Positions 4,735 to 13,803 of a stretch of DNA of 43,798 nucleotides are shown here, piece by piece. How positions within the stretch are numbered: position 1 is the first letter of the stretch; each line of letters begins with the position of its first letter. This DNA is from a virus: positions 1 through 43,798 of the IMG/VR virus record IMGVR_UViG_3300025030_000195; one strand, given 5' to 3'. Below the pieces are notes generated by a model. That model had not been told where the DNA came from, did not search any database, and saw nothing but the letters and a program-made list of their open reading frames with translations. The position numbers and the translations under genes are program-made.

Positions 4735-5922
4735 ATGAGCATCGAACTTGAAATCAAAGAAGTACAGACCAGCCTTAAGGCGGTCAATGACGACCTGAAA
4801 CGATTTGCTGAAGAAGGTCAGAAGCAGATCAAAGCCCATTCGCAGATGTCCGAAGAAACCAAGGCCAGTGTTGACAAACTCCTGATTGCCCAAGGTGAAT
4901 TGCAGGCTCGTCTGCTTGCCGCTGAACAGCTTGTAGCCAAAATGGAAGCCAAGGGTAGCGGTATCCAGGTTGTCAAGTCCATGGGGCAGTTTGTGGCCGA
5001 ATCCGAAGCCTTTGCAAACTTCTCCGGACATGGCAAATTCAGCGTAAAGATTAATTCCGCTGTTACCTCACTGACTGGTTCTGCTGGAACTCTCATTGAG
5101 CCTCAGAAAATAGGACTTGTGTCAACTCCGCAGATGAGGCTTACCATCCGCGACTTGCTCACATGGGGCCGTACCGGATCAAACAGCCTTGAGTATGTCC
5201 GTGAATCCGGATTCACCAACTCCGCTGATGTGGTGTCTGAAAATCCCGCATCCAAAAAACCTGAGTCCGATATCACTTTCGAACTTGATTCGGCTCCGGT
5301 GGCGACCATTGCACACATCCTCTACGCATCCAAACAGGTGCTTGACGATGCCGCCATGCTTGCCAGCTACATTGACGGGCGTCTCCGTTACGGTCTGAAA
5401 CTTAAAGAAGAAGCACAGCTTCTGAAAGGCTCCGGCGTTGGACTGAATATCACCGGCCTGATTACCGCTGCAACCGCCTATGTCAATCCCGGCGTGACGG
5501 TCCAGGTGGAAACCATGATTGACCGGCTCCGTTTGGCAATGTTGCAGGTTACTCTTGCCGAGTATGAGGCTGACGGTCTTGTCCTTTCTCCGATTGATTG
5601 GTGTGCAATTGAGCTTACCAAAACAACCGATAACGGGTATCTGTTCGCATCTCCTACCGGCATGGTAACACCTAGCTTGTGGGGCCGTCCTGTTGTTTCT
5701 ACTCAGTCCATGACCGCTGGTGACTTCCTCACTGGTGCATTTGCACAGGCCGCTCAAGGTTGGGATCGTGAAGACGTCAACGTGGTTGTTTCCACAGAGA
5801 ACGTGGATAACTTCGAAAAGAACATGGTCACAATGCGCTGCGAAGAGCGTATAGGCTTGACCATCTTCCGCCCTGAAGCACTTGTAACGGGTGACTTTGA
5901 CGGACTGCCAGCGTCGGCTTAA
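4735..5922 (+). CDS. major capsid protein, HK97 fold
   Basis: This 395-residue protein is the main head subunit. The first about 75 residues form a charged coiled coil (LEIKEVQTSLKAVNDDLKRF...), the scaffold-like delta domain normally removed by the protease. The mature domain has the classic end: LWGRPVVSTQSM, GDF, FAQAAQGWDRED, then MRCEERIGLTIFRPEALV. A strong AAAAGGAGAA site precedes the ATG. The gene is followed by a rho-independent terminator, which can set capsid dosage relative to downstream connector genes. The last codons and stop are partly duplicated immediately downstream. Confidence 0.95.
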   Translation: MSIELEIKEVQTSLKAVNDDLKRFAEEGQKQIKAHSQMSEETKASVDKLLIAQGELQARLLAAEQLVAKMEAKGSGIQVVKSMGQFVAESEAFANFSGHGKFSVKINSAVTSLTGSAGTLIEPQKIGLVSTPQMRLTIRDLLTWGRTGSNSLEYVRESGFTNSADVVSENPASKKPESDITFELDSAPVATIAHILYASKQVLDDAAMLASYIDGRLRYGLKLKEEAQLLKGSGVGLNITGLITAATAYVNPGVTVQVETMIDRLRLAMLQVTLAEYEADGLVLSPIDWCAIELTKTTDNGYLFASPTGMVTPSLWGRPVVSTQSMTAGDFLTGAFAQAAQGWDREDVNVVVSTENVDNFEKNMVTMRCEERIGLTIFRPEALVTGDFDGLPASA

Positions 5923-5945
5923 TTTCTCATAGCGTCGGCTTAATT
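5910..5945. repeat. direct repeat spanning the capsid stop codon
   Basis: The 15-base sequence AGCGTCGGCTTAATT occurs at 5910-5924, where it encodes the last capsid residues and the stop, and again at 5931-5945 in the gap before the terminator. It looks like a small duplication of the end of the capsid gene. No function is evident. Confidence 0.8.
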
Positions 5946-5950
5946 AATTA

Positions 5951-5982
5951 GGGCGGGGGTTAATCGCCTCCGCCCTTTTTTT
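5951..5982 (+). terminator. rho-independent terminator after the capsid gene
   Basis: GGGCGGGGG pairs with CCTCCGCCC (9 base pairs including one G-T pair) around a 7-base loop and is followed by seven T. It lies 29 bases after the capsid stop. It should reduce transcription into the connector and tail genes. Confidence 0.9.
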
Positions 5983-5993
5983 GGGGGGAACAA

Positions 5994-6263
5994 ATGCAAG
6001 TCACGGCAATAAAGAGTTTCGATCATAACGGCAGAGTCAGAAGGGGCGATGTGTTCGAGTGTTCCGATATCCAAGCCAAAGCCCTTAAACGGGCAAAGCT
6101 GGTGGAATATGAGGAAGCAGTGACTAGCCCTTTGGAATCTCCGCTGGTTTCGATTGCGTCTGTATTGCCAGCGGTCCCAGTCTCACCACAGACGATTGTG
6201 AAAAAGTCCGAAGGTGGCGCGAAAGTGAAGGGCAAGCCGGGCCGGAAAAAGAGAAGCTTGTAA
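5994..6263 (+). CDS. small head-module protein (zero-frame product)
   Basis: This 89-residue product follows the capsid gene. The first about 40 residues (MQVTAIKSFDHNGRVRRGDVFECSD..., then AKALKRAKLVEYEE) resemble small phage proteins often found right after the major capsid gene. The function is unknown; a decoration or connector role is inference from position. The last 42 residues are serine/proline-rich and end very basic (KGKPGRKKRSL). These codons overlap, in another frame, the start of a conserved domain. A slippery heptamer at codons 46-47 makes this the unshifted product of a frameshift pair. Confidence 0.75.
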   Translation: MQVTAIKSFDHNGRVRRGDVFECSDIQAKALKRAKLVEYEEAVTSPLESPLVSIASVLPAVPVSPQTIVKKSEGGAKVKGKPGRKKRSL

Positions 6264-6703
6264 TCGTCGTCAACAGCACGTTCCAAGTCGCTCCATGGGC
6301 TGACATCCTTTACGCAATGGATAGGGAATGGTGGAAACGGTATCTGGAAAAGGCAAAGGCAGAATTTCAGGGCTTAAGGTTCAGTCCCTTGACCGGATTA
6401 GCAGGGGTAAAACATGTTAAATTCGTTCATGGTCAAAATTCGGGTGTGGGTGCAATCTCTCTTGCTAATCACTGGGGAGCGAAACGGATCATATTACTCG
6501 GCTACGATTGCCAGAAAACAGGCGGGAAAAGCCACTGGCATGGCGATCATCCAAGAGGGCTAGGGAATGCCGGTTCGATTGGCACATGGCCGTTACAGTT
6601 CTACACATTGTCAAAACGTATCAACACGGAAATCATCAACTGTAGCAGGGAAACGGCGCTTACAATGTTCGAACGGAAGCCACTTGAAGAGGTATTAAAA
6701 TGA
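5994..6703 (+). CDS. predicted -1 frameshift fusion: head protein + glycosyltransferase-like domain
   Basis: The fusion reads 5994-6134, steps back one base, and continues 6134-6703, giving 236 residues. After the shift the frame gives VCIASGPSL (a MptE/DUF115-type Rossmann nucleotide-binding start), VIVVNSTFQVAPWADILYAMD, HGQNSGVGAISLANHWGA, RIILLGYDCQKTGGK and HWHGDHPRGLGN. This is a recognisable phage protein family that resembles sialyltransferase-like folds. The shifted frame opens three bases after a TAG at 6125 and has no ATG, GTG or TTG until 6317, inside the conserved domain. It therefore seems to be made only as a fusion. Its substrate is unknown. An alternative is a real or sequencing frameshift in what was once a separate gene. 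Confidence 0.75.
6128..6194 (+). promoter_or_regulatory. -1 programmed ribosomal frameshift signal with pseudoknot
   Basis: The slippery heptamer C CCT TTG (6128-6134) is in the right phase with the upstream frame. After a 6-base spacer, stem 1 CCGCTGG (6141-6147) pairs perfectly with CCAGCGG (6168-6174). Within its loop CGTCTGT (6157-6163) pairs perfectly with ACAGACG (6188-6194), forming an H-type pseudoknot with two 7-bp stems. Slipping back one base enters the open frame that encodes the glycosyltransferase-like domain. Confidence 0.85.
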
Positions 6704-7008
6704 GCGTCATAAATCTGTCAGATGCAAAAGCTTTCCTTGATGTGATCCACTCGGCAGACGACATTAAATTGCAAATAATACTAGACGGCGCAGAAGACGA
6801 GGCCGCTCAGTTTATGAACCGTTCCAATTTGTCGGAATGGGATAGTAACATTGAAATCAACTCGGAATACGCCATGCCGGTAAGCGTTATGTACGGAGTT
6901 TTGCTGCTCATGCAGGGAATGTATCAGGCTTCACCAGATGAAATGGAGAAGATACGCAAGGCCGCAGAGGGTAAATTACAACCATATCGTATCAACATGG
7001 GTATCTAA
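6700..7008 (+). CDS. head-tail connector, gp6-like
   Basis: This 102-residue protein resembles HK97 gp6-type adaptors that form a ring below the portal. It starts with LSDAKAFLDVIHSADDIKLQIILDGAEDEAAQFMNR cut in the usual way: an LxxAKxxL start, an acidic helix, then a hydrophobic MYGVLLLMQGMYQ helix and a short C-terminus ending PYRINMGI. It overlaps the frameshifted gene by an ATGA and is followed directly by the head-closure gene, the conserved connector order. Confidence 0.85.
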   Translation: MSVINLSDAKAFLDVIHSADDIKLQIILDGAEDEAAQFMNRSNLSEWDSNIEINSEYAMPVSVMYGVLLLMQGMYQASPDEMEKIRKAAEGKLQPYRINMGI

Positions 7009-9941: not shown

Positions 9942-10204
9942 TTTACAGGCTACCGGATAAAAAGCCGAGCGAGACAATGAAAGGGTTATGGTTCGATTTT
10001 GCGAATCACCTCTTGACCGGCGAAACGATATCAGAAGCGACCGTGGACGGCGACCTTGCCGAGAATGTTACCATATCCGGCACCCGTGTTGTATGGGACG
10101 CTACGGGCGGCACAGACGGGCAAACGGCGCGATTTGTCGTCACGGCTACGGGCAGCATGGGTTCCATCAGAGTTGAGATTGCAGAGATGGTGATAAACGG
10201 ATGA
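9938..10204 (+). CDS. small beta-rich virion-module protein
   Basis: This 88-residue protein starts in an ATGA overlap with the LamG gene. It opens with YRLPDKKPSETMKGLWFDFA, then DLAENVTISGTRVVWDATGG, and ends with MGSIRVEIAEMVING. The strand-rich sequence suggests a single small beta-sandwich domain. Proteins of this type occur beside phage surface proteins. No specific function is supported. Confidence 0.65.
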   Translation: MIYRLPDKKPSETMKGLWFDFANHLLTGETISEATVDGDLAENVTISGTRVVWDATGGTDGQTARFVVTATGSMGSIRVEIAEMVING

Positions 10205-11037
10205 TAATCTCCGGAATGCATGGGCTAGGCGATAATATCTATCAAAGGTCTTTCGTAAAAGAATTGCCTAAGCCGATATGGTTGAATACCTCATGGCCGG
10301 AAATTTACCACGGGATTGAAGGAATCAATTTTGTAAAGCCGGTTACTCGGTTAAGAACTCAACTTAAAAACGTGAACCGGCAGAAAATCAAATGGGTATC
10401 GCAACCACGGGGGCCGATAACGCAAGTTAGCTATGGCGACATCGGCATAATGGCGGGGATGCAAAGGGCTTTTAAAGTACGGCCGAAAACGTTTGACCTA
10501 CCTGATTACGGACCTTCACCAGTTTCCGGAAAATATGTAGTAGTCAGGCCAGCTACGATCAGGTCAGAATGGTTGGCAGAATCAAGAAACCCTTTACCTG
10601 AATATCTCTGTGAAGCGGTGGAAGTAATAAGGGTGAAGGGTTACAAAATCGTATCTGTTTCAGACTTCGAGCATCGCAAGGAATGGCCTGTTGAGCCGCT
10701 ACCCTATGCGGATATCAAGTTTCATTACGGGGAATTGTCCGTTACGCAGCTGATGTCATTGGTTCAGGGTGCGACCGCAGTAATCGGCGGTGTCGGGTGG
10801 CTCGTGCCGGCAGCGATAGCTTACAAAACACCGGCATGGATAGTATGTGGAGGATGGGGGCATTTCAACGCACCTGAGAAGCTTGTAAGCCCGATAATGG
10901 ATTTAAGCCATATAACATTTGTCAAGCCGGATAACTTCTGTTTATGCCGTTCAAATAACCACAAATGTGATAAGAGGATTGAAAATCATGGTTCCAAGTT
11001 TACCGAATGGGCTGAGAAATTCCCTACTCTGGTGTGA
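10201..11037 (+). CDS. glycosyltransferase, GT9/heptosyltransferase-like
   Basis: This 278-residue protein resembles family 9 (ADP-heptose type) glycosyltransferases. The N-terminal GLGDNIYQRSFV loop matches the GDxL region, VVVRPATIRSEW begins the second Rossmann half, and LMSLVQGATAVIGGVGWLVPAAIAYKTP matches the conserved sugar-nucleotide pocket. A Cys-rich tail (FCLCRSNNHKCDK) follows. It overlaps neighbouring genes in the virion module, so it may glycosylate a virion protein or modify the host surface. That target is inference. Confidence 0.75.
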   Translation: MIISGMHGLGDNIYQRSFVKELPKPIWLNTSWPEIYHGIEGINFVKPVTRLRTQLKNVNRQKIKWVSQPRGPITQVSYGDIGIMAGMQRAFKVRPKTFDLPDYGPSPVSGKYVVVRPATIRSEWLAESRNPLPEYLCEAVEVIRVKGYKIVSVSDFEHRKEWPVEPLPYADIKFHYGELSVTQLMSLVQGATAVIGGVGWLVPAAIAYKTPAWIVCGGWGHFNAPEKLVSPIMDLSHITFVKPDNFCLCRSNNHKCDKRIENHGSKFTEWAEKFPTLV

Positions 11038-11599
11038 AGCATCGGGGCGCGGATGGTGCGGGGCTGAACTGGTACCATACGATAAAGCTTATTTTGATAA
11101 GTATTTGGTGATGGATGAGTCAGAGTGTGGCGTGAACCTCACACGTGCAAGGCTGGATATGGTTCGTCGGCATTATGGCGGCAAAGGAGTTGATATCGGT
11201 ATCGGTGGCGGAAAGTTTGTCGAAGAATCGGGTTGGATGGGATTCGACGTAAACAACGATGCTGTTTCATGGTTGTGGTCAAACGGTCTTTACTGTAATC
11301 CTTATGCAAACAGGGTCAAGTCGGTCACGTGTTGGGATAGCCTAGAACATATACCTGAACCTGAAAAGCTCTTGGCGCAGATTGATGAATGGCTGTTTGT
11401 TTCTATGCCGATTTACAAAGACTACCGTGATTGCCTGTTTTCGAAACATTATCGTCCTGGTGAGCACATCCATTATTTCACATTTAACGGGTTAGTGCGG
11501 TTCTGTGAATCGCAAGGATTTGCGCTGGTGGAAGACAATACCATCGAGAGCGACTTAGGCCGGGAGAATATCCATTCATTCGCATTCAGGAGGGTGTAA
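10988..11599 (+). CDS. SAM-dependent methyltransferase
   Basis: This is a class I methyltransferase of about 203 residues. The SAM-binding loop is VDIGIGGGKFVE, followed by an acidic MGFDVNND strand end and the post-motif VTCWDSLEHIPEPEKLL, as in small-molecule or sugar methyltransferases. I chose the ATG at 10988, which follows AGAGGA; an in-frame ATG at 10919 would overlap the previous gene by 119 bases. It may act with the adjacent glycosyltransferase on a glycan, but this is inference. Confidence 0.8.
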   Translation: MVPSLPNGLRNSLLWCEASGRGWCGAELVPYDKAYFDKYLVMDESECGVNLTRARLDMVRRHYGGKGVDIGIGGGKFVEESGWMGFDVNNDAVSWLWSNGLYCNPYANRVKSVTCWDSLEHIPEPEKLLAQIDEWLFVSMPIYKDYRDCLFSKHYRPGEHIHYFTFNGLVRFCESQGFALVEDNTIESDLGRENIHSFAFRRV

Positions 11600-13117: not shown

Positions 13118-13146
13118 GGCCGGTTCATGTGACCGGCCTTCTTTTT
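13118..13146 (+). terminator. terminator after the tail tube gene
   Basis: GGCCGGT pairs with ACCGGCC (7 perfect base pairs) around a 7-base loop, followed by TTCTTTTT. It lies eight bases after the tail tube stop. It should keep tube protein far more abundant than the chaperones and tape measure. Confidence 0.9.
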
Positions 13147-13162
13147 GAAATGGAGGAAGCAA

Positions 13163-13513
13163 ATGTTTCTCAATGTCGAAAGCCTCAAGTCCATCGGCGG
13201 TTTTACTGGTGCGCCTGTTGAAAAGGAAATCAAGTGGAAGCAGGGGGAAACGGAATATACCGCCACTGTTTTCATTCGGCCTCTTTCATACAAGTCCACC
13301 GTTGCTGATTTGATGGCCGTGAACGAGAAGAAAGACCAGCTTGCAGCGCGTATTGCCGCATCTGTTTGTGATGCAGACGGACAGCCAGTGTTTACCGGAG
13401 ACGATGTTACCGGCGACGCAGATCCAGAACGGGGCGCTATGGATGGGAACCTTGTCATGTCCTTACTCTCCGTTATTGCCGAGGTAAACGGCATGGGAAA
13501 GACTCAGAACTGA
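13163..13513 (+). CDS. tail assembly chaperone (lambda gpG-like)
   Basis: This is the 116-residue short form of the tail chaperone. KWKQGETEYTATVFIRPLSYKSTVADLM and the end VNGMGKTQN are typical of gpG-like proteins that hold the tape measure during tail assembly. I chose the ATG at 13163, eight bases after GGAGG; an ATG at 13145 lacks a site. A lambda-type slippery heptamer lies four codons before the stop. Confidence 0.85.
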   Translation: MFLNVESLKSIGGFTGAPVEKEIKWKQGETEYTATVFIRPLSYKSTVADLMAVNEKKDQLAARIAASVCDADGQPVFTGDDVTGDADPERGAMDGNLVMSLLSVIAEVNGMGKTQN

Positions 13514-13803
13514 CCGATCAAGATGAAATCTGGCATGAGTTGGTGCTGTCTGGAATTGGAGGCAGTACCATTGCCGAGGCTCAAGAGCGGCTCAGTTATA
13601 GAGAGTTTACCAGCTGGATGAAATATCGCAACAAGCGGGGCAGTTTAAATATTGGCATGAGGGTGGAAAGGGGTGCGGCATTATTGGCAACTCTCTTTGC
13701 AAACAGCAAGAGAACATCGAACTTCCTGAAACTGTTTGATTTTATGCCGCACGAAGAAGAACCGGCGATTGACTTAGAAAAGGCAATAGAAGAGTGGAGA
13801 TAG
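13163..13803 (+). CDS. tail assembly chaperone long form (gpGT-like, -1 frameshift)
   Basis: The long form reads 13163-13501, slips back one base, and continues 13501-13803. The shifted part reads DSELTDQDEIWHELVLSGIG, then EAQERLSYREFTSWMKYRNKRG, and ends LEKAIEEWR. This is a typical T domain, which contacts the tail tube while the G part binds the tape measure. It directly precedes the tape measure gene. Confidence 0.9.
13495..13501 (+). promoter_or_regulatory. slippery heptamer GGGAAAG for gpG/gpGT
   Basis: G GGA AAG is in phase with the G frame and is the same heptamer used by phage lambda. Backing up one base joins the G frame to the T frame, which has no suitable start of its own before 13540. 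Confidence 0.9.

Follow-up and report, generated by a model that had tools for sequence, protein, structure and literature searches.

A programmed -1 ribosomal frameshift very probably (probability roughly 0.93) fuses a small DUF7210-like protein to a transferase domain in the stretch of viral DNA analysed here (43,798 nucleotides, hereafter the window). Judging from their sequences, many tailed phages, including D3, appear to make this transferase only by means of a -1 slip and always fused to the small protein. Comparison among relatives shows the frame layout, the slippery site, the pseudoknot, a depletion of start codons, conservation throughout the family and natural one-frame fusions. 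The result points to a widespread and apparently undescribed recoded gene pair in tailed phages, to be set beside the tail chaperones and the capsid extensions, and suggests a route by which a putative protein glycosyltransferase could be coupled to head assembly.

Slip site, reading frames and encoded proteins

Direct reading of the window places the heptamer C_CCT_TTG, an X_XXY_YYZ motif within the overlap of two ORFs, in the correct phase, with CCT (6129-6131) and TTG (6132-6134) as 0-frame codons of the small ORF (Table 1). A spacer of 6 nt (6135-6140) separates it from the first stem of a predicted pseudoknot. The -1 frame is open from 6128, directly after a TAG, up to 6703, and its earliest ATG, GTG or TTG is the ATG at 6317. 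Thus, the heptamer, the spacer and the open frame are all as the original prediction had described them. A slip on CCT-TTG would join 47 codons to 189 codons (6134-6700) in a fusion of 236 residues, and the natural reading put forward at the outset, that of such a fusion beside an 89-residue product, is supported by the frames and by the family comparison. Since no start codon is available to the domain itself, it would be made only as a fusion.

Table 1. Coordinates of the features discussed, numbered from the first letter of the window
Feature	Position	Strand	Basis or remark
Major capsid protein gene (HK97-type)	4735..5922	+	directly upstream; PF05065, E=2e-54
0-frame ORF, 89 aa	5994..6263	+	first gene 3' of the major capsid gene; DUF7210-like N-domain and disordered basic tail (predicted)
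SD-like GAGGAAG, possible stimulator	6111..6117	+	10 nt 5' of the heptamer; distance and family enrichment
TAG in -1 frame, upstream bound of shift region	6125..6127	+	sequence
Slippery heptamer C_CCT_TTG	6128..6134	+	sequence; same heptamer in relatives
-1 frame transferase domain	6128..6703	+	C-terminal 189 residues of the 236-residue fusion; phrog_4603, Maf/GT42-sialyltransferase/MptE-like fold (predicted)
Stem 1, 5' arm CCGCTGG	6141..6147	+	pairs with 6168-6174
Stem 2, 5' arm CGTCTGT	6157..6163	+	within the stem 1 loop
Stem 1, 3' arm CCAGCGG	6168..6174	+	in relatives with a slip site, stem 1 is above the synonymous null
Stem 2, 3' arm ACAGACG	6188..6194	+	closes the H-type pseudoknot
ORF from first standard start in domain frame	6317..6703	+	product would be without beta1-alpha1-beta2 and the CIASGPSL motif
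Head-tail connector gene (gp6-like, Ad1)	6700..7008	+	directly downstream

The two perfect 7-bp stems that were proposed to form an H-type pseudoknot are found exactly where they had been placed. Among 161 heptamer-shaped sites on the plus strand and 162 on the minus strand, in any phase, only the site at 6128 is followed by a pseudoknot of 7+7 bp, and 20 trials with shuffled windows gave none. The MFE z-score of the site is a modest -1.6, obtained with simple MFE and a folding model that does not include pseudoknots, and a search of Rfam returned no relevant match. Most of the weight of the case rests on the family statistics rather than on these window figures. The GAGGAAG upstream of the heptamer, which the original prediction did not list, sits at the position from which SD-like elements stimulate -1 frameshifting in bacteria.

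In the proposed mechanism, most ribosomes translating the small gene would stop at 6261-6263 and release the 89-residue protein. At the heptamer, a fraction would slip back by one base, with the tRNAs on CCU and UUG moving in tandem to CCC and UUU. The pseudoknot would pause the ribosome and help the slip, probably with the assistance of the SD-like element. The shifted ribosomes would then continue in the -1 frame and yield a minor fusion of 236 residues, whose tail is replaced by a Maf/GT42-sialyltransferase-like domain. We infer both the occurrence and the rate of slipping in the window gene.

According to its structural model, the 89-residue protein is a confidently predicted small N-terminal fold (about residues 1-40, pLDDT ~94) with a disordered basic tail (pLDDT ~60). 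Its N-domain scores 15.9 bits against Pfam PF23843 DUF7210 (residues 1-35, E=0.0098), under the cut-off of 27, and is therefore called DUF7210-like. The small ORF matches phrog_2616 (E=5e-4), and a search with the N-domain gave weak matches only, to GINS, the N-domain of ribosomal L9 and YqbF. In the -1 frame, the match to phrog_4603, named alpha-2,3-sialyltransferase, covers profile positions 1-173 of 178 (E=5.9e-56). For Pfam PF01973 MptE-like, the score is 21 bits against a cut-off of 34.6; nonetheless, the predicted fold is similar to that of MptE. In structure comparison (VIA), the model of the domain (pLDDT 90.8, pTM 0.89) resembles the Maf flagellin glycosyltransferase 5mu5 (Z 15.5 over 169 residues), Cst-I 2p2v (Z 11.5 over 175 residues), the Cst-I/Cst-II sialyltransferases (Z about 11) and MptE (Z 11.3), and a Foldseek search of the domain against the PDB returned no significant match. 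By these models, the domain shares the Maf/GT42 sialyltransferase fold over most of its length and is a putative enzyme. Translation from ATG 6317 would yield a protein without the core of the fold, since both beta1 and the CIASGPSL loop are encoded 5' of this codon. With less certainty, the enzyme may glycosylate a head protein or another phage protein, the N-domain bringing it to its target.

Conservation of the signal among relatives

A total of 223 distinct homologous sites came from scans of viral contigs, genome contigs and annotated phages. At 149 of these, a DUF7210-like ORF overlaps the transferase domain, which is encoded in its -1 frame, and in most of the 149 the small ORF is recognisably of the same family. 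The closest relatives, which come from separate contigs (L002, 90% amino acid identity; L003, 88%), keep the frames, the layout and CCCTTTG, while L004 (68%) keeps the layout with the heptamer AAACCCT. An identical CCCTTTG is present in L002, L010, L133, L139, L147, L155, L158 and others.

Statistics were computed on 90 non-redundant representatives (<80% nucleotide identity), from which two artefactual sites had been removed. Start codons are strongly depleted from the domain frame within the overlap: 15 are seen, against 119 expected from composition and 110 in the third frame, and 77 of the 90 loci are free of them, where 30.5 such loci would be expected. An X_XXY_YYZ heptamer is in phase at 56 loci; the two other phases give 13 and 6, and shuffling of the domain-frame codons gives 26.5±3.8, with a maximum of 37 in 1000 shuffles. 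When motifs are tallied, 59 loci carry a heptamer, 18 a C_CC.Y tetramer and 77 either of them. The signal is therefore conserved across divergent relatives, with 13 of the 90 representatives having no recognised motif in the overlap. Heptamers of several kinds (CCCTTTG, CCCTTTA, CCCAAAG, AAACCCT, GGGAAAA, GGGAAAC, AAAAAAG and AAATTTC) occupy much the same place. Because the codon pairs at this orthologous place differ (PF, PK, GK, KK, KP and KF), it is the nucleotide pattern that is kept and not the amino acids. In a GC-rich group (L028, L023, L020, L173, L266, L278, L279 and others), G_GGA_AAA or A_AAA_AAA is located 60-135 nt 5' of the GPS codon, and the conserved linker, RYGGPAGRW, is longer.

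The stems were compared with a null in which the amino acids of the domain frame are fixed and codons are drawn at random from each locus's own usage, the 0-frame peptide being free to vary. Both stems exceed this null at loci with a heptamer nearby (stem 1, z 1.44, p 1.5e-5; stem 2, z 0.73, p 2e-3) and at those with a C_CC.Y site (stem 1, z 1.32, p 4e-4; stem 2, z 0.76, p 1e-3). By the same null, there is no excess in 62 relatives with a start of their own or in loci where the slip site is elsewhere or unknown, and these stems are not shared by the group whose slip site is located further upstream. The excess of stems, a predicted stimulatory structure, is thus confined to relatives with a slip site. 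MFE z-scores fail to separate the classes of loci; only the specific stems do so. Compensatory changes are few because the stem bases overlap conserved codons: 83% of cells are paired and 5 cells are changed on both sides, a level reached by 1 of 500 shuffles, so that covariation by itself is suggestive but not strong. CGCTGG is kept in the window despite coding S-A-G there, in place of the G-R-W of most relatives. Upstream, 31 of 77 loci have an SD-like 4-mer 6-18 nt 5' of the slip site, a distance known to be stimulatory, whereas windows taken from 18 nt further upstream give 5-17.

There are also natural fusions in a single frame. L160 encodes the N-domain and the transferase in one frame, and L308, L319 and L293 appear to do likewise, the N-domain matches in these fusions being weak (E 0.0017-0.3). 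L184 is homologous to the L160 fusion at both ends (51% and 44% identity), and its halves are in two frames separated by -1, with C_CCT_TCG between them. Evidence of this kind, from split and fused homologues, has been used in support of other recoded pairs. For the L160 fusion, the N-domains were misplaced in a joint alignment, which was therefore kept out of the prediction.

It had been stated beforehand that relatives with an independent start for the domain, and without the heptamer, would count against frameshifting. Such relatives do exist (for example L018, L150, L162 and phage P1 pmgO); nevertheless, they make up a separate class, with neither an overlapping ORF nor excess stems, and the frameshift reading stands.

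Phage D3 carries C_CCA_AAG. Its annotated orf7, which starts 24 codons past the motif, misses the start of the domain. Psp6 is annotated in the same way, and in phi1 no gene is annotated at this place. The frameshift reading would recover the N-terminus that is missing from these annotations, truncated in the former two and omitted in the latter. A GTG/TTG situated 22 codons before the motif in D3 was considered as a start and rejected, as it derives from 0-frame Leu-Cys codons and reads CTG in L106 and L125. Both D3 and its host are available in culture and the phage has its own heptamer, which makes the claim directly testable. Besides, the many natural signals, which include heptamer types, tetramers, SD-like sequences and pseudoknots, constitute a comparative set for the rules of bacterial frameshifting.

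Two further observations concern individual contigs. In L013 (2968-3016), about 10 nt are missing between the slip site and the motif with respect to the close relatives L012 and L014, a loss that changes the required frame; by its sequence, this would be either an error of assembly or a copy that has decayed. L004 (about 4806), L159 (about 2749) and L245 each contain, within the same contig, another homologue of the transferase domain (FCLASGPS / VIFGSGPS), possibly a paralogue.

Alternative readings of the overlap

Non-AUG starts are known in bacteria, and the domain could in theory have a non-canonical start of its own (CTG, ATT, ATC or ATA) and be translated independently of the small ORF. 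The window does contain an ATC (6137-6139) with GAGGAAG about 20 nt upstream, and other phages have the domain as a functional gene by itself. Nevertheless, this reading is very improbable: from the upstream stop (at most 60 nt back) to 15 nt before the GPS codon, 71 of the 90 representatives have no ATG, GTG, TTG, CTG, ATT, ATC or ATA in the domain frame, the ATC of the window is CGC in L002, and the slippery heptamers and stems would be left unexplained. Still less likely is termination-reinitiation, in which the stop at 6261 would be coupled to ATG 6317 to give a product of 128 residues. This product would miss beta1, alpha1, beta2 and the conserved GPSL motif, and the conserved reading frame reaches upstream to the slip site, even though no standard start precedes that ATG in the domain frame, it lies 53 nt past the stop codon and annotators of D3 and Psp6 chose similar internal starts.

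The least probable explanation is a sequencing or assembly error, or a gene decayed by a frameshift mutation. As the window is an IMG/VR virus record, an uncorrected indel is possible in principle, and an indel at the slip site would have undone the original prediction. Instead, L002, L003 and L004, all separate contigs, have the same frames, as do the isolate phages D3 and Psp6 and dozens of others; both frames are open and conserved, and L013 illustrates what a real deletion looks like. Because the layout is kept in close relatives, it is not a sequencing error, and this alternative is counted as already refuted.

Known recoding systems and gene neighbourhood

The signal itself is ordinary. 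C_CC.A_AA.G, the heptamer of D3, is the strongest -1 motif in E. coli, where it shifts at up to 54% with a pseudoknot, and the tetramers C_CC.U and C_CC.C also shift in E. coli with a pseudoknot (PMC4066793). The text of that paper does not list C_CC.U_UU.G with the strongest motifs of E. coli, and its efficiency is given in a figure only. What appears new in the open literature searched is the gene pair and its use, in which an enzyme would be produced solely in fusion with a protein encoded next to the capsid gene. The main-text passages found in GeneTack 2013, PRFect 2024 and Sharma 2014 do not name the pair, and the initial statement that no frameshift has been described for it agrees with the open-access papers covered by an incomplete search.

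Like the lambda G/GT (HK97-type) tail chaperone, the window would have a -1 slip on X_XXY_YYZ in a tailed-phage morphogenesis operon, with a major short product and a minor fusion. It differs in that the pair is just 3' of the major capsid gene and the shifted part has an enzyme fold instead of a chaperone domain. Whereas tail chaperone sites have chaperone domains and come before the tape measure gene, the neighbours of the 6128 site are capsid and connector genes. Capsid extensions (T7 10A/10B, T3 and Lactobacillus phage A2, and Listeria phage PSA with a +1 shift) similarly append a C-terminal domain by recoding in the head region (PMC5009743), but there the capsid protein itself is lengthened, often by an Ig-like domain, while in the window a small neighbour would gain a glycosyltransferase-like domain. 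The -1 signals of IS3/IS911 and dnaX are of the same three-part kind, with an upstream SD-like sequence, a heptamer and a downstream structure (pseudoknot or hairpin). Heptamers of their type, A_AAA_AAG and C_CCA_AAG, also occur in this phage family; the genes and products are unrelated. Phage P1 pmgO (37% identity) and other stand-alone phrog_4603 genes have a homologous transferase domain, but with their own ATG, no overlapping DUF7210-like ORF and no excess stems.

In retroviral Gag-Pol, an enzyme is likewise joined by frameshift to a protein of the particle-building set and is made only as a minor fusion. By contrast, the window belongs to a bacterial virus with no relation of descent, and the place of the small protein in the particle is putative. 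Tentatively, and with somewhat less than even odds, a similar strategy might operate here: the frameshift would tether the enzyme to a head-associated small protein, in a fixed ratio to the free form, so that it decorates the capsid or rides in the particle, with starts in the enzyme frame being selected against.

Between the capsid gene and the small ORF, a terminator-like element (5950-5985) consists of GGGCGG...CCGCCC followed by a T run, and it may lower the expression of the frameshift gene relative to that of the capsid. Across the end of the capsid gene (5911-5945), AGCGTCGGCTTAATT is present twice. A second in-phase site, G_GGA_AAG (13495-13501), closes the ORF of the tail assembly chaperone (13145-13513) and lies between the Phage_TAC_13 and Phage_tail_T genes, the chaperone frameshift region spanning 13145-13803. 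Given this canonical lambda-type site and the Phage_tail_T ORF that follows, -1 frameshifting probably takes place twice in this phage. Further along, a phrog_6804 gene (10201-11037; GLGDNIYQR, ADP-heptose-transferase-like by eye) overlaps a methyltransferase gene (10919-11599), and gene pairs of a similar kind are neighbours in D3, PAJU2 and Psp6. An in-frame fusion of a phrog_6804-like domain to the transferase is present in L005 and L010. These neighbours suggest a sugar-modification cassette.
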